Positions 1,286 through 22,098 of a stretch of 22,305 bases of DNA are shown one piece after another (the stretch's first letter is position 1; each line of letters starts with the position of its first letter). A program made the position numbers and the translations under genes. The notes beneath the pieces are model-generated. The model ran no database searches, was not told where the DNA came from, and worked only from the letters and a program-made list of their open reading frames with translations. The stretch lies in IMG/VR virus record IMGVR_UViG_3300009130_000154, positions 1-22,305 of that record; one strand, written 5' to 3'. This DNA is from a virus.

Positions 1286-1356
1286 CTTGAGTTTTTCTGA
1301 AAAAACTTTTTTACCCCGCAATTTACAGCAAACTAAAACAAAGCAATCTAAGCGTT

Positions 1357-1385
1357 TTGACAAATCCGTTTAGATATGTTATCAT
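1357..1385 (+). promoter_or_regulatory. Promoter for the resolvase-phosphoesterase operon
   Basis: TTGACA (1357-1362), a 17-base spacer and TATCAT (1380-1385) form a strong sigma-70-like promoter on the plus strand. The -10 box lies inside the left arm of the inverted repeat 1380-1436, so whatever binds that repeat would compete with RNA polymerase. Confidence 0.75.
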
Positions 1386-1436
1386 CTTGTCTTCCGGACA
1401 AGAGCGTTAGCCGCTAGTCGGGAAGACAAGATGATA
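1380..1436. repeat. 16-bp perfect inverted repeat overlapping a promoter (possible operator)
   Basis: TATCATCTTGTCTTCC (1380-1395) is perfectly repeated in reverse at 1421-1436, with a 25-base centre. Arm centres are 41 bp apart, close to four helical turns. The predicted transcription start near 1392 falls after most of the left arm, so the repeat can act as a DNA site more easily than as an RNA hairpin. The TTGTCTTCC core recurs in the inverted repeat at 20911-20949. Confidence 0.7.
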
Positions 1437-1461
1437 TATATCAAGCAGCCCGAGGACAAGA

Positions 1462-1896
1462 ATGATAAACACAGATGAATTACTGTTCACAGTCAAGGTG
1501 TACCACAAACTGAAGAACAACAATAACGGACAGAGCCGCCACTGGTCTTCCGCCCACTCCGAGCGGAAGAAGTGGATGAAGGCTCTGGAGACAGCAGAGG
1601 TCGAGACAGAGACAGGAATGGTCTTTGGCTTCCACGAGTTCCTATCTGAGATCCTCGGTAACGAGCCTCTGACACAAAAGGTGGGTATCGAGGTGCATAG
1701 AGTCTTGGGGCCGAGAGAAAGACGCTGGGACGCTGACTCTGTGCTGAGGGGGTCAGCCAAGCAGCTCATTGATTCCTTGGTTGAATCTAACTACTTGCAT
1801 GACGACAACATTAAGCATATACTTTGGGCATTGGGTACACAATCTTCCAAGCGTGCGGAAGAGTCCCACGTGTTAGTTCGATTTTTTGGAGCATAA
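1462..1896 (+). CDS. rusA: RusA-like Holliday junction resolvase
   Basis: This 144-residue protein matches the size and motif order of the RusA family, homodimeric endonucleases that cut four-way DNA junctions and are common in phage replication and recombination modules. The acidic residues expected to bind metal are Asp90 and Asp92 (in RRWDADSV), followed by Lys100, Asp104 in an LIDSLVE helix, and Asp114-Asp115 in LHDDN. This is the usual D-x-D ... D-x-L ... DD spacing of RusA. The start ATG has GAGGA 6 bases upstream. It is the first gene after the promoter at 1357 and is followed 2 bases after its stop by the phosphoesterase gene. In phages this activity resolves branched DNA before packaging; that role here is inferred from family and context. 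Confidence 0.82.
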   Translation: MINTDELLFTVKVYHKLKNNNNGQSRHWSSAHSERKKWMKALETAEVETETGMVFGFHEFLSEILGNEPLTQKVGIEVHRVLGPRERRWDADSVLRGSAKQLIDSLVESNYLHDDNIKHILWALGTQSSKRAEESHVLVRFFGA

Positions 1897-2606: not shown

Positions 2607-2663
2607 TAAGCTCGCCTCTCCCCGCCCCTGACATCTGTGCCGCATGTCACGGGGAGAGGCTTA
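2607..2663. terminator. Bidirectional hairpin between convergent operons
   Basis: CCTCTCCCCG (2615-2624 region) pairs with CGGGGAGAGG (2650-2659 region), extended by TAAG / CTTA at the outside with a 4-base bulge and by TGACAT / ATGTCA inside. It lies between the stop of the phosphoesterase gene and the end of the late operon, where a shared terminator is expected. A clear run of T is missing on both sides, so it may work with a factor or as an mRNA 3' end barrier. Confidence 0.6.
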
Positions 2664-2672
2664 CAGGGCCGC

Positions 2673-2963
2673 TCAGGGCCCCATGCCATTCTTTGCAGCA
2701 TTGCTGACAGCTCGGTTCAACAGCCTCTTTGCCGCAACTCTTTTCATGGACGCGGGAACCATCCTTAGGAATGGCACAAGGTGCTCGCCCTGTGACAGCA
2801 GGTGTGCAACGATCTGGTCCGACCTCTCGATGCAGCCAGCCACACCCCACCTATCCATCTTCTCCGCCATGTCCTTGCAGCCACAGCCCCCCTTGAACTG
2901 GATTGCCCAGTCAGGGATCAGCTTCGCCAGTTCTGTTCCTACTTTTTCCATGCTACGGCTCAC
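2673..2963 (-). CDS. Small cysteine-containing protein at the end of the late operon
   Basis: This 96-residue protein has a GCGCKDMAEKMDRWGVAGC block (about residues 26-44), i.e. C-x-C with a following helix and a further cysteine, then a helical basic C-terminus. Short proteins with a 'GCGC-K-x(3)-M/L-x-x-WG' block occur at the end of tail gene clusters in several phages; their role is not known to me. The first possible start is GTG at 2963, which overlaps the end of the upstream gene by 11 bases; an ATG at 2951 is equally possible and neither has a strong ribosome site, suggesting translational coupling. Confidence 0.65.
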   Translation of the reverse strand: MSRSMEKVGTELAKLIPDWAIQFKGGCGCKDMAEKMDRWGVAGCIERSDQIVAHLLSQGEHLVPFLRMVPASMKRVAAKRLLNRAVSNAAKNGMGP

Positions 2964-12406: not shown

Positions 12407-12425
12407 TGTTTTCCTTTTCGTTAAG

Positions 12426-12498
12426 TTCTGCCTGAGGGACTCGAACCCCCGACACGCGGATTATGATTCCGCTGCTCTACCATCTGAGCTAAGGCAGC
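12426..12498 (-). tRNA. tRNA with CAT anticodon (elongator Met, or Ile2)
   Basis: A complete 73-base cloverleaf can be drawn on the minus strand. The acceptor is GCTGCCT with AGGCAGA (six pairs plus a G1-A72 mismatch), the D stem GCTC / GAGC, the anticodon stem GCGGA / TCCGC with loop ATCATAA, and the T arm GGGGG-TTCGAGT-CCCTC. The discriminator is A and no CCA is encoded. The D stem has the C11-G24 pair of elongators, and the three G-C pairs of initiator tRNA are absent. CAT could be read as Met, or as Ile if C34 becomes lysidine. It lies inside the head-tail operon. Confidence 0.93.
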
Positions 12499-16516: not shown

Positions 16517-18208
16517 CTACGAGATAAATAGATCCCCCTTGCTTCGCCCACGTCCAAGCATGGCCCGTGAGAATGCCATTGTCAGTGCAACAAGCGGGTC
16601 GATCTTCTGGCTGGACGATGCTTTATCGTATTGCCATCTGTCAGACCTGTCTCGCACAGCAACCGCATTCGACAGGCACCATCTGAGCAGCGGAGATCCA
16701 TCATGTGTGAATCGACCGTCTGCCAATGCTTGCCGTAGTTCAGCAATGGGTTCGTTAAAGTGTCTTGTTGTTTGCGGCATAGCCGAGATGACCACGCCCT
16801 CTTGCTCAACCTGCTCACCGAACTGCTGTGCCTGATAGGGGTCGATAGCACAGTCAGATGAGTAGTATGTCCAGTAGTCGTCCACAAATTCCTTTTGCAG
16901 GTCAGTGATGGGCGAGTCTGTGACCTTAATCAGCCCCTGCTCGATGAAGTCGCAGAAGGGTATGGCGTTAAGGTCGCGGGGAGTGTTGCGGGCGATGTAA
17001 GCCCTGATACGCCCCTCGTATCGGTAGATCGGTCTGCCTTCTACGTCCTTGTCGTTTGTATCGAATCGGGCAACAAAGGCTGATGCTGCGAGGTCGTCAC
17101 GACCCCCAAGGTCAATTCCGGCTCCCACACAATCAGCATCTCTGGACCAGTCGGACAGCTCGCCCTTGCAGTTGTCGAAGTCTTCGAGGTTGAATATTCG
17201 CTCGGTAGAACTGACAAGAACATTTGCGTGGTATCTCTTGAATCTGTTAAGGGCCTGCGGGGAAGTCATTGCGGGTTTGATCTGTTGTCTCAAGAACTCC
17301 ATGCTGATCGAGACGCCCATATTGGGGCAAGACTTGATCCAGCAGTTCTCGTCGAACGGGTCATCTTTCTCGTCAATCTCATAGCACGCTGCAAACAGTG
17401 CCTCTTCGTCGATTGTCTGGTCAAGCACTTGCTTCGCGAAACCAACCTCTTCAATCCAGATGTGCGACTGGTCGTCACCCGCCGTGGTCACTGTCATTGT
17501 CAGTGGCTGCACTCGAGCACCAGATCCGGTTTGCATGGTGTTATAGAACTTGCGGTGTTGCTTCGTCCATGCGTGAGTCTCGTCGAGAATGACGAGCTGA
17601 GGCGACAGGCCATCGTAGGGCCGATCAGATCCAACTGCCTGCATGTTGCCGCCGTTGTGGTGAAACGTCATCACCTTGTTGGCTACCGTGCTGCCCTCTT
17701 TGAGTACAGGAGACTGTTGCCTCATGCGGAAACACTCGGCAAGAATAACCTTCTCGCTCTGCTCACGCTTAGTGGCGGCCATGATGATCTGTGACTGACC
17801 TTCAGGCTCTTTTGTGATCGGATTGATGTCGCAGGATGCAACGAACATTGCGATGCCTGCAGCTATCGTTGACTTACCCTGCTTGCGGCCCATTGACCAA
17901 TAGACTCGACGAAAGCGTCTGCCACGGCCATCGTCACGCTGCCAGCCAAAGATGTTTGCAACTGCGAAAGCCTGCCACTCTTCCAAGTGAAATGGGTCGC
18001 CAGCGTGCTCACCAATCGAATGGCGAAGTGCTGCTGGAAAAAAGGCGATGACAGCAGATGCTTTTTTCTCGTCGAAGTAGTACGGGAAGTCAGGTGTGCT
18101 CTGCCGCTCAAGGTCACGGTAGTAACGCTCTACAGCTAGACGCACGTACTTGCCGGTGATGATGTCACCGTTAATGACTTTTTGTGCGTAAGATTCCCAA
18201 GGGGACAT
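16517..18208 (-). CDS. terL: Terminase large subunit
   Basis: This 563-residue protein has the ATPase and nuclease halves of a packaging motor. Walker A is SMGRKQGKST (residues 105-114), Walker B LVILDETHAW with Asp209-Glu210, and a TVTTAG coupling motif follows. The RNase H-like nuclease starts at GIDLGGRDDLAA (about residue 365) and has a late acidic residue in KIDPLVALTMA (about 537). The set is typical of the HK97/lambdoid-type TerL. AAGGGG precedes the ATG by 7 bases, and the gene begins 3 bases after the small subunit stop. It packages DNA through the portal encoded next. Confidence 0.94.
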   Translation of the reverse strand: MSPWESYAQKVINGDIITGKYVRLAVERYYRDLERQSTPDFPYYFDEKKASAVIAFFPAALRHSIGEHAGDPFHLEEWQAFAVANIFGWQRDDGRGRRFRRVYWSMGRKQGKSTIAAGIAMFVASCDINPITKEPEGQSQIIMAATKREQSEKVILAECFRMRQQSPVLKEGSTVANKVMTFHHNGGNMQAVGSDRPYDGLSPQLVILDETHAWTKQHRKFYNTMQTGSGARVQPLTMTVTTAGDDQSHIWIEEVGFAKQVLDQTIDEEALFAACYEIDEKDDPFDENCWIKSCPNMGVSISMEFLRQQIKPAMTSPQALNRFKRYHANVLVSSTERIFNLEDFDNCKGELSDWSRDADCVGAGIDLGGRDDLAASAFVARFDTNDKDVEGRPIYRYEGRIRAYIARNTPRDLNAIPFCDFIEQGLIKVTDSPITDLQKEFVDDYWTYYSSDCAIDPYQAQQFGEQVEQEGVVISAMPQTTRHFNEPIAELRQALADGRFTHDGSPLLRWCLSNAVAVRDRSDRWQYDKASSSQKIDPLVALTMAFSRAMLGRGRSKGDLFIS

Positions 18209-18211
18209 CTG

Positions 18212-18691
18212 CTACCCCTTGAGTTCCTTGATGATGCTCGCGAGTGATGTGCCCTGTTGCTTCTCCTCTTTGGTTGATGCAACAGACAGCCTAGCCCTCG
18301 AGGATGGTGAAAGCCCAAGTTCGCCAAGTATCTTCAGGTGGCGATCAGCTAGTTTGTGGAAAGTCATGGACTGAGCCGAGGTCTTGCCGTCCTCGTTCTC
18401 GTGTCCATGCTTCGCTACATGAAGGTATGCTTTCTTCCATTCTGAGTAACATGACACGTAAGATGTCAATAGGTGAGTATCAGTTTCAGAAAGGATGTTG
18501 CATTCCTTGAGGACCGCCACAGTCTCATCCCAGACAGCCGATGCTGTCTCGTCGAGTTCAATGAAGTCAGGCTTTACAGGAACGCCAGCCGAAGCATGGA
18601 TAATGTTTGCGGGCTTCCGACTGGGGTTCTTTTTGTAAGAGCCATTGGCTTCAGCAACTTCCGTTGCCATAGGTTTTCTTCCTCGTGTCAT
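18212..18691 (-). CDS. terS: Terminase small subunit (P27-like)
   Basis: This 159-residue protein starts MTRGRKP, the usual opening of P27-type small subunits, followed by a NPSRKPANI segment, a helical core (ETASAVWDETVAVLKECNILSETDTHLL) and a C-terminal RHLKILGELGLSPSSRARL, all matching that family. It recognises phage DNA for packaging by TerL. The -10 box of its promoter ends only 6 bases before this ATG, so the mRNA would be nearly leaderless. An alternative ATG at 18670 has GAGGA 11 bases upstream and would lose the conserved RGRKP. I favour 18691 on family grounds. Confidence 0.85.
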   Translation of the reverse strand: MTRGRKPMATEVAEANGSYKKNPSRKPANIIHASAGVPVKPDFIELDETASAVWDETVAVLKECNILSETDTHLLTSYVSCYSEWKKAYLHVAKHGHENEDGKTSAQSMTFHKLADRHLKILGELGLSPSSRARLSVASTKEEKQQGTSLASIIKELKG

Positions 18692-18697
18692 GCACAC

Positions 18698-18715
18698 ATT
18701 ATAACTACTCAAAAA
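18698..18715 (-). promoter_or_regulatory. Late promoter before the terminase genes
   Basis: The minus-strand sequence TTTTTGAGTAGTTATAAT differs from the capsid promoter block at one of 18 positions. It has a perfect -10 box and no normal -35. Expected transcription start is at or within two bases of the ATG at 18691. Confidence 0.72.
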
Positions 18716-18729
18716 AATGTTTAAGGTAT

Positions 18730-18758
18730 TTGACACAGATGCCGAATTAGTCTATGTT
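18730..18758 (+). promoter_or_regulatory. Promoter for the primase operon
   Basis: TTGACA (18730-18735), 17 bases and TATGTT (18753-18758) lie back to back with the late promoter reading the other way. Only about 15 bases separate the two promoter cores, so a regulator bound here could influence both. Confidence 0.7.
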
Positions 18759-18781
18759 ACGGGTATTCCAAAGGAGGAAAC

Positions 18782-18826
18782 ATGGACGAAGAATTGATTA
18801 CCTTTTTCACGGAGCACGCAGTATGA
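18782..18826 (+). CDS. 14-residue leader peptide coupled to the primase
   Basis: The ORF reads MDEELITFFTEHAV and is preceded by AAAGGAGG, the best ribosome site in the window, 5 bases before the ATG. Its TGA overlaps the ATG of the primase (ATGA at 18823-18826). The arrangement implies that ribosomes finishing the leader restart on the primase. The peptide has no known function of its own; it may set primase expression or respond to translation conditions. Confidence 0.6.
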   Translation: MDEELITFFTEHAV

Positions 18827-20877
18827 CGTTTAGGATCGACACAGCAATCGCGGATTTGAACCCAAGGGTCATCCCCATTAAGGGGGAAATGAAGGCACCA
18901 CTGATCAAGGGCTGGCCTGAAACTCAGGACCGCGTGGAAGATTGGTTGAAGTTGAATGGCGGTGACCACCAATTCGATGATGACGATTACCACCGGTATG
19001 GCATAGTGCTGGATGAGGACATGGTTGTCGTTGATTTCGACACTCACGAAGGGCAAGCCAACGGGTTTGAGTCCTACAGTGAGCTGCTTGGTGCCGGGTG
19101 TGAAGACATCTTTGAGCACTGTGGGCTTATTGTCTCGTCACCGAGTGGCGGAAAACACCTCTTCTTCCGCAAGGATGCGGAGGTGAAGATCCCGAAGAAC
19201 AGCAAGGCATTCCCCGGTATCGACCTGTTGACAAAAAACTGTCAAGTCATCGGTGCAGGATCCAATCACGTCAATGGTGGCGTGTACAAGGTCGAGAAGT
19301 GGACCGGAGAGCTGACGACTCTCGGCAACGAGTTCTTTGACTGGTTTCGACCAGCCAAGTCTGAAACAACTGGCAACCGTATCGACCGCGAAGAGGCTTA
19401 TTACAGTGACAGGAACCGTGGCGAAACCCCACGCGACTCGTTTGACAAGTCACAGGATGCAGTCTACATCGTCAAGAGTGCGATGGAATCTCAGGGTTAC
19501 GTCTTCCATGACAGAGGCAATCACTACAGCTACACGCGGCCAAACAAGACAGACGCCTCGTTCTCAGTGTCTGGCACGCTTGGGCGTTTGAACACCAATG
19601 GCAAGCCGTATCTCAAGAACTTCAGCACATCGGATGCAAACTTCGATCCAGAGTCCTACAGCCTTTCTGAGGCATACAAGAAGGTCTGTGGCCTCGACAA
19701 TGCTGGCCTCATGCGTGAGCTGGAGGAGAACGGCTACTCTCGCCCCCAGATCACAGCAGAGGAGGACCGCATGATTCAGGGGTTTCTGGAGTCCCTTGGC
19801 AAAGGTCATAGCCGCAAGGAACAGGCGGCAGCAACTGGAGAGCAGCTGGAGAAGCAGTACCCCACATTCTCCTACGAAGAACTGGGTGACCACTGTGGTG
19901 AGGATCGTCGCGAGTGGCTGATCGAGGGGCTGCTTCGCCGTGGTGAGGTCATGAACATCATCGCTGCCCCCAAAGTCGGTAAGTCGTGGCTGGTCTACAA
20001 CATTGCACTGGCTGTCACATCCGGTCGAGAGTTCCTTGGATACAAGGCTGACAAGCCCCTGAAGGTGCTCATCGTTGACAACGAGCTGCACAAAGAGGAG
20101 CTGACTTGGCGTGTCAGACAGGTCGGAAACGCCCTCAACGCGAAGCCCGAAGGACGCTTGAACTTCACCTTCCTGAGAGGGTCTATGGTGGATATTGACG
20201 CCCTTGACTCTAAGCTGGATGAGTGCGGTGGAAGCCAGTATGACATCATCGTCATCGACGCTTTCTACCGGATCTTGCCCAAAGGGATGAGCGAGAACGA
20301 CAATGCAAGCATGACCCAGATTTACAACAAGCTGGACGGGCTTGCGAGCAAGAACGAGGCTTCGATCATCAACATTCACCACAGCTCCAAGGGCAACCAA
20401 GGGGATAAGGGTGTGACCGATGTTGGTGCTGGAGCTGGTGCAATCTCTCGTGCAGCAGACACTCACATGGTCATCCGAGAGCATGTCGAGGAGAAGCACG
20501 TTGTGATCGAAGCCGTTACCAGATCAGGACTTAGCCCTGCTCCAGTGACTGCCGAGTTCCAGTTCCCGCTGTGGATTCACAAGCCAGACATGGACTCGAC
20601 TGTCAAGAACTTTGAGAATGCTCGCGACAAGAGGAATGCCGACCAGAAGGAAGACATCGCAGGGAAGTACGAGGGAATTGCCCAGTGGGTAACGGAATAC
20701 GAGGCAAGTAACGGCAAGCAGCCTAACTCTGTAGAGGTATACGAAGGCTGCAAAATGGGTACTTGGGACAAGGTGGTAACATTCAAGAAACACCTGAAGA
20801 AGATGTCCGAACTAGGCATCCTCAAAGAGCTTCCAAAAGCCGCTGGATCGAATGCCCTTAGATACACTTGTAAGTAA
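18823..20877 (+). CDS. Primase-polymerase fused to an AAA ATPase (replicative primase-helicase)
   Basis: This 684-residue protein joins two activities. Residues about 10-170 form an archaeo-eukaryotic type prim-pol domain: MVVVDFDTHEG gives the catalytic Asp71 and Asp73, SSPSGGKHLFF gives His112, and PGIDLLTKNCQVIGAGSNHVNG gives Asp134 and the nucleotide-binding end. Residues about 220-320 (VFHDRGNHYSYTRP ... LSEAYKKVCGL) are a linker domain not recognised. Residues about 370-560 are a RecA-like ATPase with Walker A AAPKVGKSW (about 381-389) and Walker B DIIVIDAF (about 473-480). The last 60 residues look like a winged helix. It would start and unwind phage replication. I use ATG 18823, with GGAG 8 bases upstream and coupling to the leader ORF; an upstream in-frame ATG at 18754 lies within the -10 box and cannot be used from this promoter. 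Confidence 0.88.
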   Translation: MTFRIDTAIADLNPRVIPIKGEMKAPLIKGWPETQDRVEDWLKLNGGDHQFDDDDYHRYGIVLDEDMVVVDFDTHEGQANGFESYSELLGAGCEDIFEHCGLIVSSPSGGKHLFFRKDAEVKIPKNSKAFPGIDLLTKNCQVIGAGSNHVNGGVYKVEKWTGELTTLGNEFFDWFRPAKSETTGNRIDREEAYYSDRNRGETPRDSFDKSQDAVYIVKSAMESQGYVFHDRGNHYSYTRPNKTDASFSVSGTLGRLNTNGKPYLKNFSTSDANFDPESYSLSEAYKKVCGLDNAGLMRELEENGYSRPQITAEEDRMIQGFLESLGKGHSRKEQAAATGEQLEKQYPTFSYEELGDHCGEDRREWLIEGLLRRGEVMNIIAAPKVGKSWLVYNIALAVTSGREFLGYKADKPLKVLIVDNELHKEELTWRVRQVGNALNAKPEGRLNFTFLRGSMVDIDALDSKLDECGGSQYDIIVIDAFYRILPKGMSENDNASMTQIYNKLDGLASKNEASIINIHHSSKGNQGDKGVTDVGAGAGAISRAADTHMVIREHVEEKHVVIEAVTRSGLSPAPVTAEFQFPLWIHKPDMDSTVKNFENARDKRNADQKEDIAGKYEGIAQWVTEYEASNGKQPNSVEVYEGCKMGTWDKVVTFKKHLKKMSELGILKELPKAAGSNALRYTCK

Positions 20878-20910
20878 CTTTTTATCTTCCATCAAAACGA
20901 CCTTATCGTC

Positions 20911-20949
20911 TTGTCTTCCCCCTACATATAAATATGTAGGGGAAGACAA
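20911..20949. repeat. Long inverted repeat with the TTGTCTTCC core
   Basis: TTGTCTTCCCCCTACATAT (20911-20929) pairs with ATATGTAGGGGAAGACAA (20932-20949), leaving a 2-base loop and one unpaired C. Flanking GACCT and AGGTC (20899-20903 and 20957-20961 region) can extend it. No T run follows, so it is not a simple terminator. The outer 9 bases are the same as in the inverted repeat at 1380-1436. Confidence 0.72.
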
Positions 20950-20994
20950 CACGAAAGAGGTCATTGAAACACCCCCCGAAGACGAGACCAAAAA

Positions 20995-21327
20995 ATGAGT
21001 TCAAAACGACGAGACAAAAATCGAGACCTGAAGCAGCGACAAGCCCTCTGGGATCACTACGGTGACCGGGTGGTCAGGTCGGGCGGCCTGAAGCCCAAGC
21101 ACGAGTATTCGAGATTTCACTGCTTCGACTGTGGAAACCACTTTTTCCAGAAGACCGCCAGCTTGGTGGACCGTGGATGCAGCACTCGATGCAAGTGCCC
21201 GCCCCACAATTCCAAGCGATTCGCAAACGGGCAGCACCCAAAATCTCACGGGCACACGTGCCTGCCGGAATGGGAGCAGTGGGACCTCGAAAAGCCAGAT
21301 CGGCCAACCTGCCGACCGGAAGAATAA
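20995..21327 (+). CDS. Small zinc-binding protein, possible transcription regulator
   Basis: This 110-residue protein has a basic N-terminus (SSKRRDKNRDLKQRQ) followed by a metal-binding pattern: HCFDCGNHF, then 15 residues after the second Cys the cluster C-STR-C-K-C with a nearby His. This is C-x2-C-x15-C-x3-C-x-C. The C-terminus is Pro/Glu-rich and has another Cys. The combination of basic arm and compact zinc site suggests DNA or RNA binding. Small zinc proteins such as Ogr/Delta activate late promoters in P2-like phages; this one is not recognisably of that family, so the role is a guess. The ribosome site is weak (GAGAC). Confidence 0.68.
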   Translation: MSSKRRDKNRDLKQRQALWDHYGDRVVRSGGLKPKHEYSRFHCFDCGNHFFQKTASLVDRGCSTRCKCPPHNSKRFANGQHPKSHGHTCLPEWEQWDLEKPDRPTCRPEE

Positions 21328-21340
21328 ATTTTAGGCCCAT

Positions 21341-21448
21341 GAAGGCCCCTAGCAGCCACGCTAAGGGCCTTCGAGGGGGTACCCTGTATGATCGGTCAAG
21401 TTTGGCTCCGAGGCTCTTAGGGAGCCGCACAGGAGCTGAGAGGTTTTT
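21341..21448 (+). terminator. Hairpin region ending the primase operon, with alternative stems
   Basis: GAAGGCCCCTAG (21341-21352) pairs with CTAAGGGCCTTC (21361-21372) with one mismatch. Further on, GGCTCC (21404-21409) pairs with GGAGCC (21421-21426). A competing stem CTCTTAG (21414-21420) with CTGAGAG (21436-21442) is followed at once by five T (21444-21448). The second stem plus T run is the best terminator candidate; the stretch between 21327 and 21475 holds no gene that I can see. Confidence 0.5.
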
Positions 21449-21475
21449 CAGAAAGTTTCTGGAATTTTATCAACT

Positions 21476-21516
21476 TTGCGTTTGACATCGACGATACAAC
21501 CTGTACAATGGAGGCA
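21476..21516 (+). promoter_or_regulatory. Early promoter, right copy
   Basis: TTGACA (21482-21487), 16 bases and TACAAT (21504-21509) make a strong promoter. It matches the minus-strand early promoter at 1243-1285, including bases outside the two boxes. Transcription would start near 21516, over 200 bases before the first ORF. Confidence 0.8.
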
Positions 21517-21700
21517 CACAAGCGAAGTTCGACCTGATCGCCATAGTCGTGGTTGTCGGACGCTACTTCCGAGAAGATTACTAAGTTGCTGACGTGGACG
21601 CACGTAGCAGAACCTAGTTTGGTCCTTTAGCGGGGATTGAATCTCGGAAGCTGGCAAGGCTGAGGTGACGAGCAGCCCGATCAGGTCGGATTTCTTAGTG
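21516..21700 (+). ncRNA. Candidate structured RNA (leader or independent small RNA)
   Basis: Four helices nest without conflict. P1 is 21525-21540 with 21678-21693 (16 pairs, two of them G-T). P2 is CTTCCGAG 21566-21573 with CTCGGAAG 21643-21650 (8 perfect pairs). P3 is a hairpin 21586-21610 (TTGCT-ACGT with ACGT-AGCAG, one bulged G). P4 is GGCTG 21658-21662 with CAGCC 21673-21677, directly abutting P1. No ORF with a ribosome site lies here. It begins at the early promoter and ends about 40 bases before the ATG at 21734. It is not a tRNA and matches no RNA family that I recognise. Confidence 0.6.
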
Positions 21701-21733
21701 GTGCAAATTTTCACATTAACGATAGGAGCAAAC

Positions 21734-22009
21734 ATGCACGTTCAGGTGACCCTGAGATACAGAAGTGACAGAGTGAAGAAATATTTAAGTACCTACTTGA
21801 CAGCTATCGACGTGGCCGATTATGGTTACCACGGTGCGGCTGTCAGGGCAACCGGATTGTTCCCTGATGAGATCAAAGAAGTTAAAAGCACGTTCGGAGA
21901 GAGTTTATACTCCGAAGTTGCGTGGTACCGTGTTTGCCGACTCGAGGACAAAGCGTGTCAGGACTCGGCAGCAGAAGAAACAGAGTTTACGCAAGGATTG
22001 GGACTATGA
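21734..22009 (+). CDS. Unknown early-type protein after the structured RNA
   Basis: This 91-residue protein starts MHVQVTLRYRSDRVKKYL, with AGGAG 5 bases before the ATG. It has an N-terminal strand and a basic helix, then a middle with several Tyr and Val, and an acidic end (DSAAEETEFTQGLGL). No family is recognised. It is the first ORF downstream of the right early promoter, so it is likely expressed early. The upstream in-frame ATG at 21665 lies inside the structured RNA without a ribosome site. Confidence 0.7.
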   Translation: MHVQVTLRYRSDRVKKYLSTYLTAIDVADYGYHGAAVRATGLFPDEIKEVKSTFGESLYSEVAWYRVCRLEDKACQDSAAEETEFTQGLGL

Positions 22010-22098
22010 AAAAAGAAACTAGCCCTTTGACATGCTTGGGCACAGCAGCTATACTGTGTGCAGCGTTCTTGATTGGTTGTCTTGTTTTTGGAGTTTAA
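22006..22098 (+). CDS. 30-residue predicted membrane micro-protein
   Basis: The ORF starts MKKETSPLTC and continues into a hydrophobic segment (LGTAAILCAAFLIGCLVFGV) that would span the membrane once with the basic N-terminus inside. It overlaps the previous stop by ATGA, so translation can be coupled. A good sigma-70 promoter lies inside it (22027-22055), so part of this DNA also serves as promoter. It may instead be a chance ORF; three Cys within the membrane segment are unusual. Confidence 0.45.
   Translation: MKKETSPLTCLGTAAILCAAFLIGCLVFGV
22027..22055 (+). promoter_or_regulatory. Sigma-70 promoter inside the micro-protein ORF
   Basis: TTGACA (22027-22032), 17 bases and TATACT (22050-22055) give five of six matches in the -10 box and a perfect -35. 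Transcription would begin near 22062 and serve the genes from 22100 on. Confidence 0.7.

Follow-up and report, generated by a model that had tools for sequence, protein, structure and literature searches.

6S RNA binds sigma-70 RNA polymerase and templates pRNA, and put RNA brings about protein-free antitermination through the beta' zinc-binding domain. The phi29 packaging RNA, at about 170 nt, has paired ends and a branched interior, and the partner of such RNAs is a packaging ATPase of the phi29 type, not TerS/TerL. Structured RNAs have also been described in the 5' leaders of phage transcripts: the 5' UTR of p40 in phiKZ yields a structured ncRNA of approximately 180 nt, alongside longer mRNA-like forms, as seen by Northern blot (PMC8545117), and putL of HK022, located just behind PL, forms two stem-loops (PMC9378689). 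We compare with these systems a leader found in a phage of uncultured origin.

The stretch of DNA that we analyzed (hereafter the window) is a 22,305-base IMG/VR virus record, probably a fragment, of a tailed phage. The minus strand encodes TerS, TerL, portal, HK97-type capsid and tape measure proteins, the terminase subunits being assigned by family (TerL, PF03354 and PF20441; TerS, PF05119). The plus strand encodes a PrimPol/AAA_25 helicase-primase (18754-20877), a 110-aa cysteine-rich protein (20995-21327) and small genes. Three small minus-strand ORFs (145-369, 750-923 and 1002-1208) look alike (RYRV.S.NGVLN.Y...), as if by tandem duplication. No close relative of the window was present among 50,697 phage records; in the nearest viral contigs TerL is 85-92% shared and the helicase about 50-62%. 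Two different relatives, L122 and L123 (TerL identity 67% and 50%), are both binned in the Chloroflexi MAG Bse_26, which is a weak hint, and no proof, of a Chloroflexota host.

The helicase and TerL genes lie on the same strand in contig L004 (10-2016 and 8001-9692) and are divergent in the window (16517-20877), L006, L010 and L014; one of the two modules, helicase or TerL, is inverted or moved between L004 and the other four. Between the primase-helicase and cysteine-rich genes, a long hairpin is found in the window (20906-20954; arms of 16 nt, 94% complementary), in L004 (~2330-2395) and in L014 (~2640-2720, minus strand). Its position is conserved and the sequences are unrelated, and we propose that it is a terminator or a replication element. 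In L004, tandem repeats of GTAAGGTAGGCTAGGTTGCC-like units (2080-2310) come just before this hairpin.

Our main subject is the 218-base leader that starts right behind a strong sigma-70-type promoter, where the first-pass annotation had also placed it, and that runs to the ATG of a 91-aa gene (Table 1). We take the promoter to be early from its type and position, and the predicted start lies about seven bases behind the -10 box. The ends of the leader were set by this start and the ATG, not by the fold, and thus were not chosen for folding. On the plus strand the leader is predicted to fold into one closed domain (21524-21694), in which a closing helix is followed by a large bubble and then by a second helix and two hairpins; the inner part of the domain forms a three-way junction in this prediction.

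The first-pass annotation had described a strongly folded RNA of about 180 bases, closed by a 16-bp helix with arms 137 bases apart. The strong fold and the 137-nt separation of the arms were borne out; the folded part comes to approximately 171 nt, and the helix has 17 pairs instead of 16, of which 15 are Watson-Crick and two are G-U (21527/21691 and 21529/21689), with a perfect 11-bp core (21530-21540/21678-21688). The 8-bp inner helix that it had noted, CUUCCGAG/CUCGGAAG, is present at 21566-21573/21643-21650 and lengthens to 13 pairs with one bulge. It had also named two hairpins, one of them abutting the closing helix; an optional hairpin, formed on the bubble's 3' side, is in that position, and the two inner hairpins are further in. 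Every helix it had named was found at the stated coordinates or one or two bases away.

Table 1. Features of the leader and its surroundings in the window.
Feature	Positions	Strand	Basis or remark
Sigma-70-type promoter TTGACA-16-TACAAT	21482-21509	+	11/12 consensus match; predicted start ~21516
Untranslated leader without ATG	21516-21733	+	sequence; fold z -3.5
Closing helix, 5' arm	21524-21540	+	predicted fold, shuffle tests
Central bubble, 5' side	21541-21561	+	weak alternative pairings, pair probabilities 0.4-0.5
Second helix, 5' arm	21562-21574	+	partner 21642-21655
First inner hairpin	21580-21618	+	predicted fold
Second inner hairpin, G-U-rich, adjoining the first	21619-21640	+	predicted fold
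Second helix, 3' arm	21642-21655	+	predicted fold
Optional hairpin, 3' side of bubble, adjoining the closing helix	21658-21677	+	pair probability ~0.56
Closing helix, 3' arm	21678-21694	+	predicted fold, shuffle tests
91-aa gene behind the leader	21734-22009	+	no family; weak relative in L020

By shuffle tests the structure of the leader is real and locally significant; its function we infer. The leader has a folding energy of -77.6 kcal/mol, compared with -62.3 +/- 4.4 in dinucleotide shuffles (n = 2000; z -3.5), two of which folded as well, and the comparison with shuffled controls proposed in the first-pass annotation thus came out in favor of structure. For the 178-nt core the z-score is -4.45, with none of 200 shuffles as good. 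The closing helix was equalled in none of the 2000 leader shuffles, and was the best among 884 real 218-nt phage windows, counting both strands. The earlier statement that an 11-bp match so far apart is not expected by chance holds for the leader and fails for the whole 22 kb: because a long-range helix at least as strong as the closing helix occurs in 11 of 80 shuffled 22-kb windows, it is unexpected by chance only within the leader interval. The phage's own windows average a z-score of -0.6 (sd 1.4), and so generally fold somewhat better than shuffled sequence; in a 370-window grid, with only 20 shuffles per window, six other windows have a lower z-score than the leader. The lowest-scoring 178-nt grid window, below the leader at z -6.7, lies at 1321-1498 (plus strand) and may be a terminator ahead of the gene at 1462.

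These background frequencies bear on the reading that the RNA has no function, the fold being due to chance or being the trace of a past DNA rearrangement in an untranslated leader. Such a reading would accommodate the equally strong helices in shuffled windows, the other phage windows that fold as well by z-score, and the lack of visible conservation in related viral loci. It sits poorly with the shuffles of the leader itself, which so rarely reached its energy and never its closing helix, and with a G-U bias towards the transcribed strand, and we regard it as quite unlikely.

The promoter is oriented along the plus strand. The fold of this strand is 12 kcal/mol better than that of the minus strand and includes 13 G-U pairs, compared with 3 in the minus-strand fold; the z-scores are alike on both strands. 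The G-U pattern and the energy fit selection on a plus-strand RNA better than they fit a DNA palindrome. We hold it highly improbable that the element acts as DNA, as an origin or an operator with inverted repeats: it is an inverted repeat near a replication gene, but its arms are 137 bases apart, the two irregular pairs in the closing helix read as G-U on the plus strand, and the inner hairpins are G-U-rich.

Nothing that we found suggests that the leader encodes a protein. It lacks an ATG on the plus strand and has stops in all plus frames, and no credible protein match was obtained for either strand. One candidate, a minus-strand ORF that spans the leader (21448-21735, 95 aa), was rejected: it belongs to no family, has no credible relative, and has a codon score below those of both neighboring genes checked. 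ARAGORN called no tRNA or tmRNA in the leader interval; in the whole window it yielded only a tRNA-Met (CAT; 12425-12498, minus strand), which sits within the structural module.

The opinion that the leader matches no known class agrees with our search of the Rfam 15 covariance models, among them those for riboswitches, ribozymes and introns, in which no family matched the leader even at E 10; the region gave only two snoRNA chance matches, far below gathering scores. The 6S RNA model RF00013, the nearest in outline, likewise gave no match at E<=10 in 431 bases, and this silence is informative because, of 10 genomes with related terminases, six yielded 6S RNA to this model. In its predicted fold the leader resembles 6S RNA in its length, a closing stem, a central bubble with an optional hairpin on the 3' side, and an inner stem; the inner stem of 6S RNA is mainly unbranched, however, whereas the inner part of the leader is predicted to be branched.

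Such likenesses raise the question of a free small RNA acting in trans, which might for example bind the host's RNA polymerase as 6S RNA does, or titrate an RNA-binding protein of the host. A length of approximately 180 nt, closed ends, and a large bubble with its optional 3'-side hairpin would suit this role, and phage ncRNAs of similar size that derive from leaders are known (PMC8545117). The absence of a 6S match and the branched interior tell against it, as does the 3' end of the domain, where there is neither a convincing terminator nor a known processing site. The resemblance to free small RNAs drawn in the first-pass annotation is undercut on this last point, and we consider a trans-acting RNA unlikely. 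The stronger proposal, that this is a new phage RNA class of about 180 nt, unrelated to known RNAs, which would be released from the leader at the start of infection and would act in trans by capturing the RNA polymerase, or some other factor, of the host, we judge improbable.

Two further likenesses that had been suggested fared no better. With the phi29 packaging RNA the leader shares paired ends, a branched interior and a similar size, but the leader has no Rfam match, and both terminase subunits of this phage, large and small, are of the ordinary kind, which makes a phi29-like packaging RNA unlikely. The other suggestion, a riboswitch-like leader, can be widened to include a protein-controlled switch for the 91-aa gene, and an aptamer-like, closed and branched domain directly before a gene is what one would look for in either. 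The ribosome-binding site of the gene, however, lies outside the predicted folded domain and does not pair with it; the sole terminator-like competitor of the closing helix is a stem of 4-5 bp with a poor T-run; no Rfam riboswitch matches; and the gene has no metabolic relatives. A classical switch is disfavored because there is no good terminator and the domain does not base-pair with the ribosome-binding site, and we consider any switch of this kind very unlikely.

Among described leaders, HK022 putL likewise comes from a tailed phage, is structured, follows an early promoter directly and contains two adjoining hairpins (PMC9378689). A put-like antiterminator, in which the nascent leader binds its own polymerase and lets it pass terminators, would agree with the position and the adjoining hairpins seen here; the size and architecture do not agree. 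The put RNA is approximately 70 nt and consists of two plain stem-loops without a closing helix (PMC9378689), whereas the leader is larger and its two inner hairpins are enclosed by two long helices. No sequence relation is shown, and a second promoter (22027-22055) lies approximately 300 bases further on, so that long read-through is not obviously needed. We think this mechanism improbable here.

The best parallel is the phiKZ p40 5' UTR RNA, which is likewise a structured phage 5'-leader RNA of approximately 180 nt without an ORF (PMC8545117). That RNA contains two stem-loops, of which the second may be a terminator, and was seen by Northern blot; the leader described here is predicted to form a single closed, branched domain with no good terminator, the two RNAs being compared by description.

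We searched for homologues of the leader with several methods. Blastn against phages and plasmids found none, nor did pattern searches of 2.9 million viral contigs, nor blastn and a single-sequence covariance model (R1) applied to related viral loci and 20 whole records. Bacterial genomes were drawn from groups that carry related terminases: in 12 of them R1 gave just matches at E about 1-2, and in approximately 595 genomes, from the phyla to which two hosts of related terminases belong, it gave nothing. A single-sequence model finds fairly close relatives only, so these negatives are compatible with distant ones, and the collections searched may omit records very near the window's own. Several leads were discarded. 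The palindromic closing-helix pattern had five matches in the 2.9 million viral contigs, all with unrelated interiors and in GC-rich stretches that look coding, which we attribute to chance. Patterns taken from the domain, 18-mers and one of 30 bases, gave 0, 0 and 4 matches, the four sharing just 18-25 bases. The 15-mer GCAAATTTTCACATT is shared with L014, but we estimate that the sequence compared would contain about one match of this kind by chance.

L004, which matches the last 132 bases of the window at 97%, is the one contig that spans the helicase, the cysteine-rich gene and the small genes after them, and the RNA is absent there. In L020, the remote relative of the 91-aa gene comes after coding sequence. 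Antisense targets of the leader within the window were also sought, and the longest complement, 12 bases, is approximately at chance level. Because no homologue was found, no covariation could be counted and there is no sign of conservation; the searches and the absence of the RNA from L004 suggest that it is young, fast-changing or rare.

On balance we favor, tentatively and with a probability of about 0.42, a structured 5' leader that is self-contained and acts in cis on the early phage transcript to which it belongs. The locus has a promoter, an untranslated leader, a fold better than shuffled sequence and a gene behind it, as a structured phage 5' leader would. We base this reading on the promoter and its spacing; on the leader's z-score and a closing helix unmatched in its shuffles and among the real windows; on the plus-strand bias in energy and G-U pairs; on the non-coding nature of the leader and the free ribosome-binding site; and on the experimental parallel in the phiKZ p40 5' UTR RNA (PMC8545117). 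It is weakened by the lack of a homologue, by L004, and by the six windows with lower z-scores.

As a cis-acting leader, the RNA would be made by a host-type RNA polymerase starting at approximately 21516, as the promoter suggests. The first 180 bases are predicted to form the one closed domain, whose 5' arm would begin approximately 8 bases from the start, and the ribosome-binding site of the 91-aa gene would be left outside. A 5' end buried in a long helix, and a fixed branched fold shown to the polymerase, an RNase or a host protein, might give a longer-lived message or more efficient read-through. A cut near 21695 could, more speculatively, free an RNA of approximately 180 nt as a by-product or second product.

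At present this is a single sequence without homologues, and it mainly flags a spot to be examined in metatranscriptomes. Should it prove to be expressed and functional, it would add a further example of a phage that places an RNA, not a protein, before its early genes, here in an uncultured lineage with no cultured relatives.
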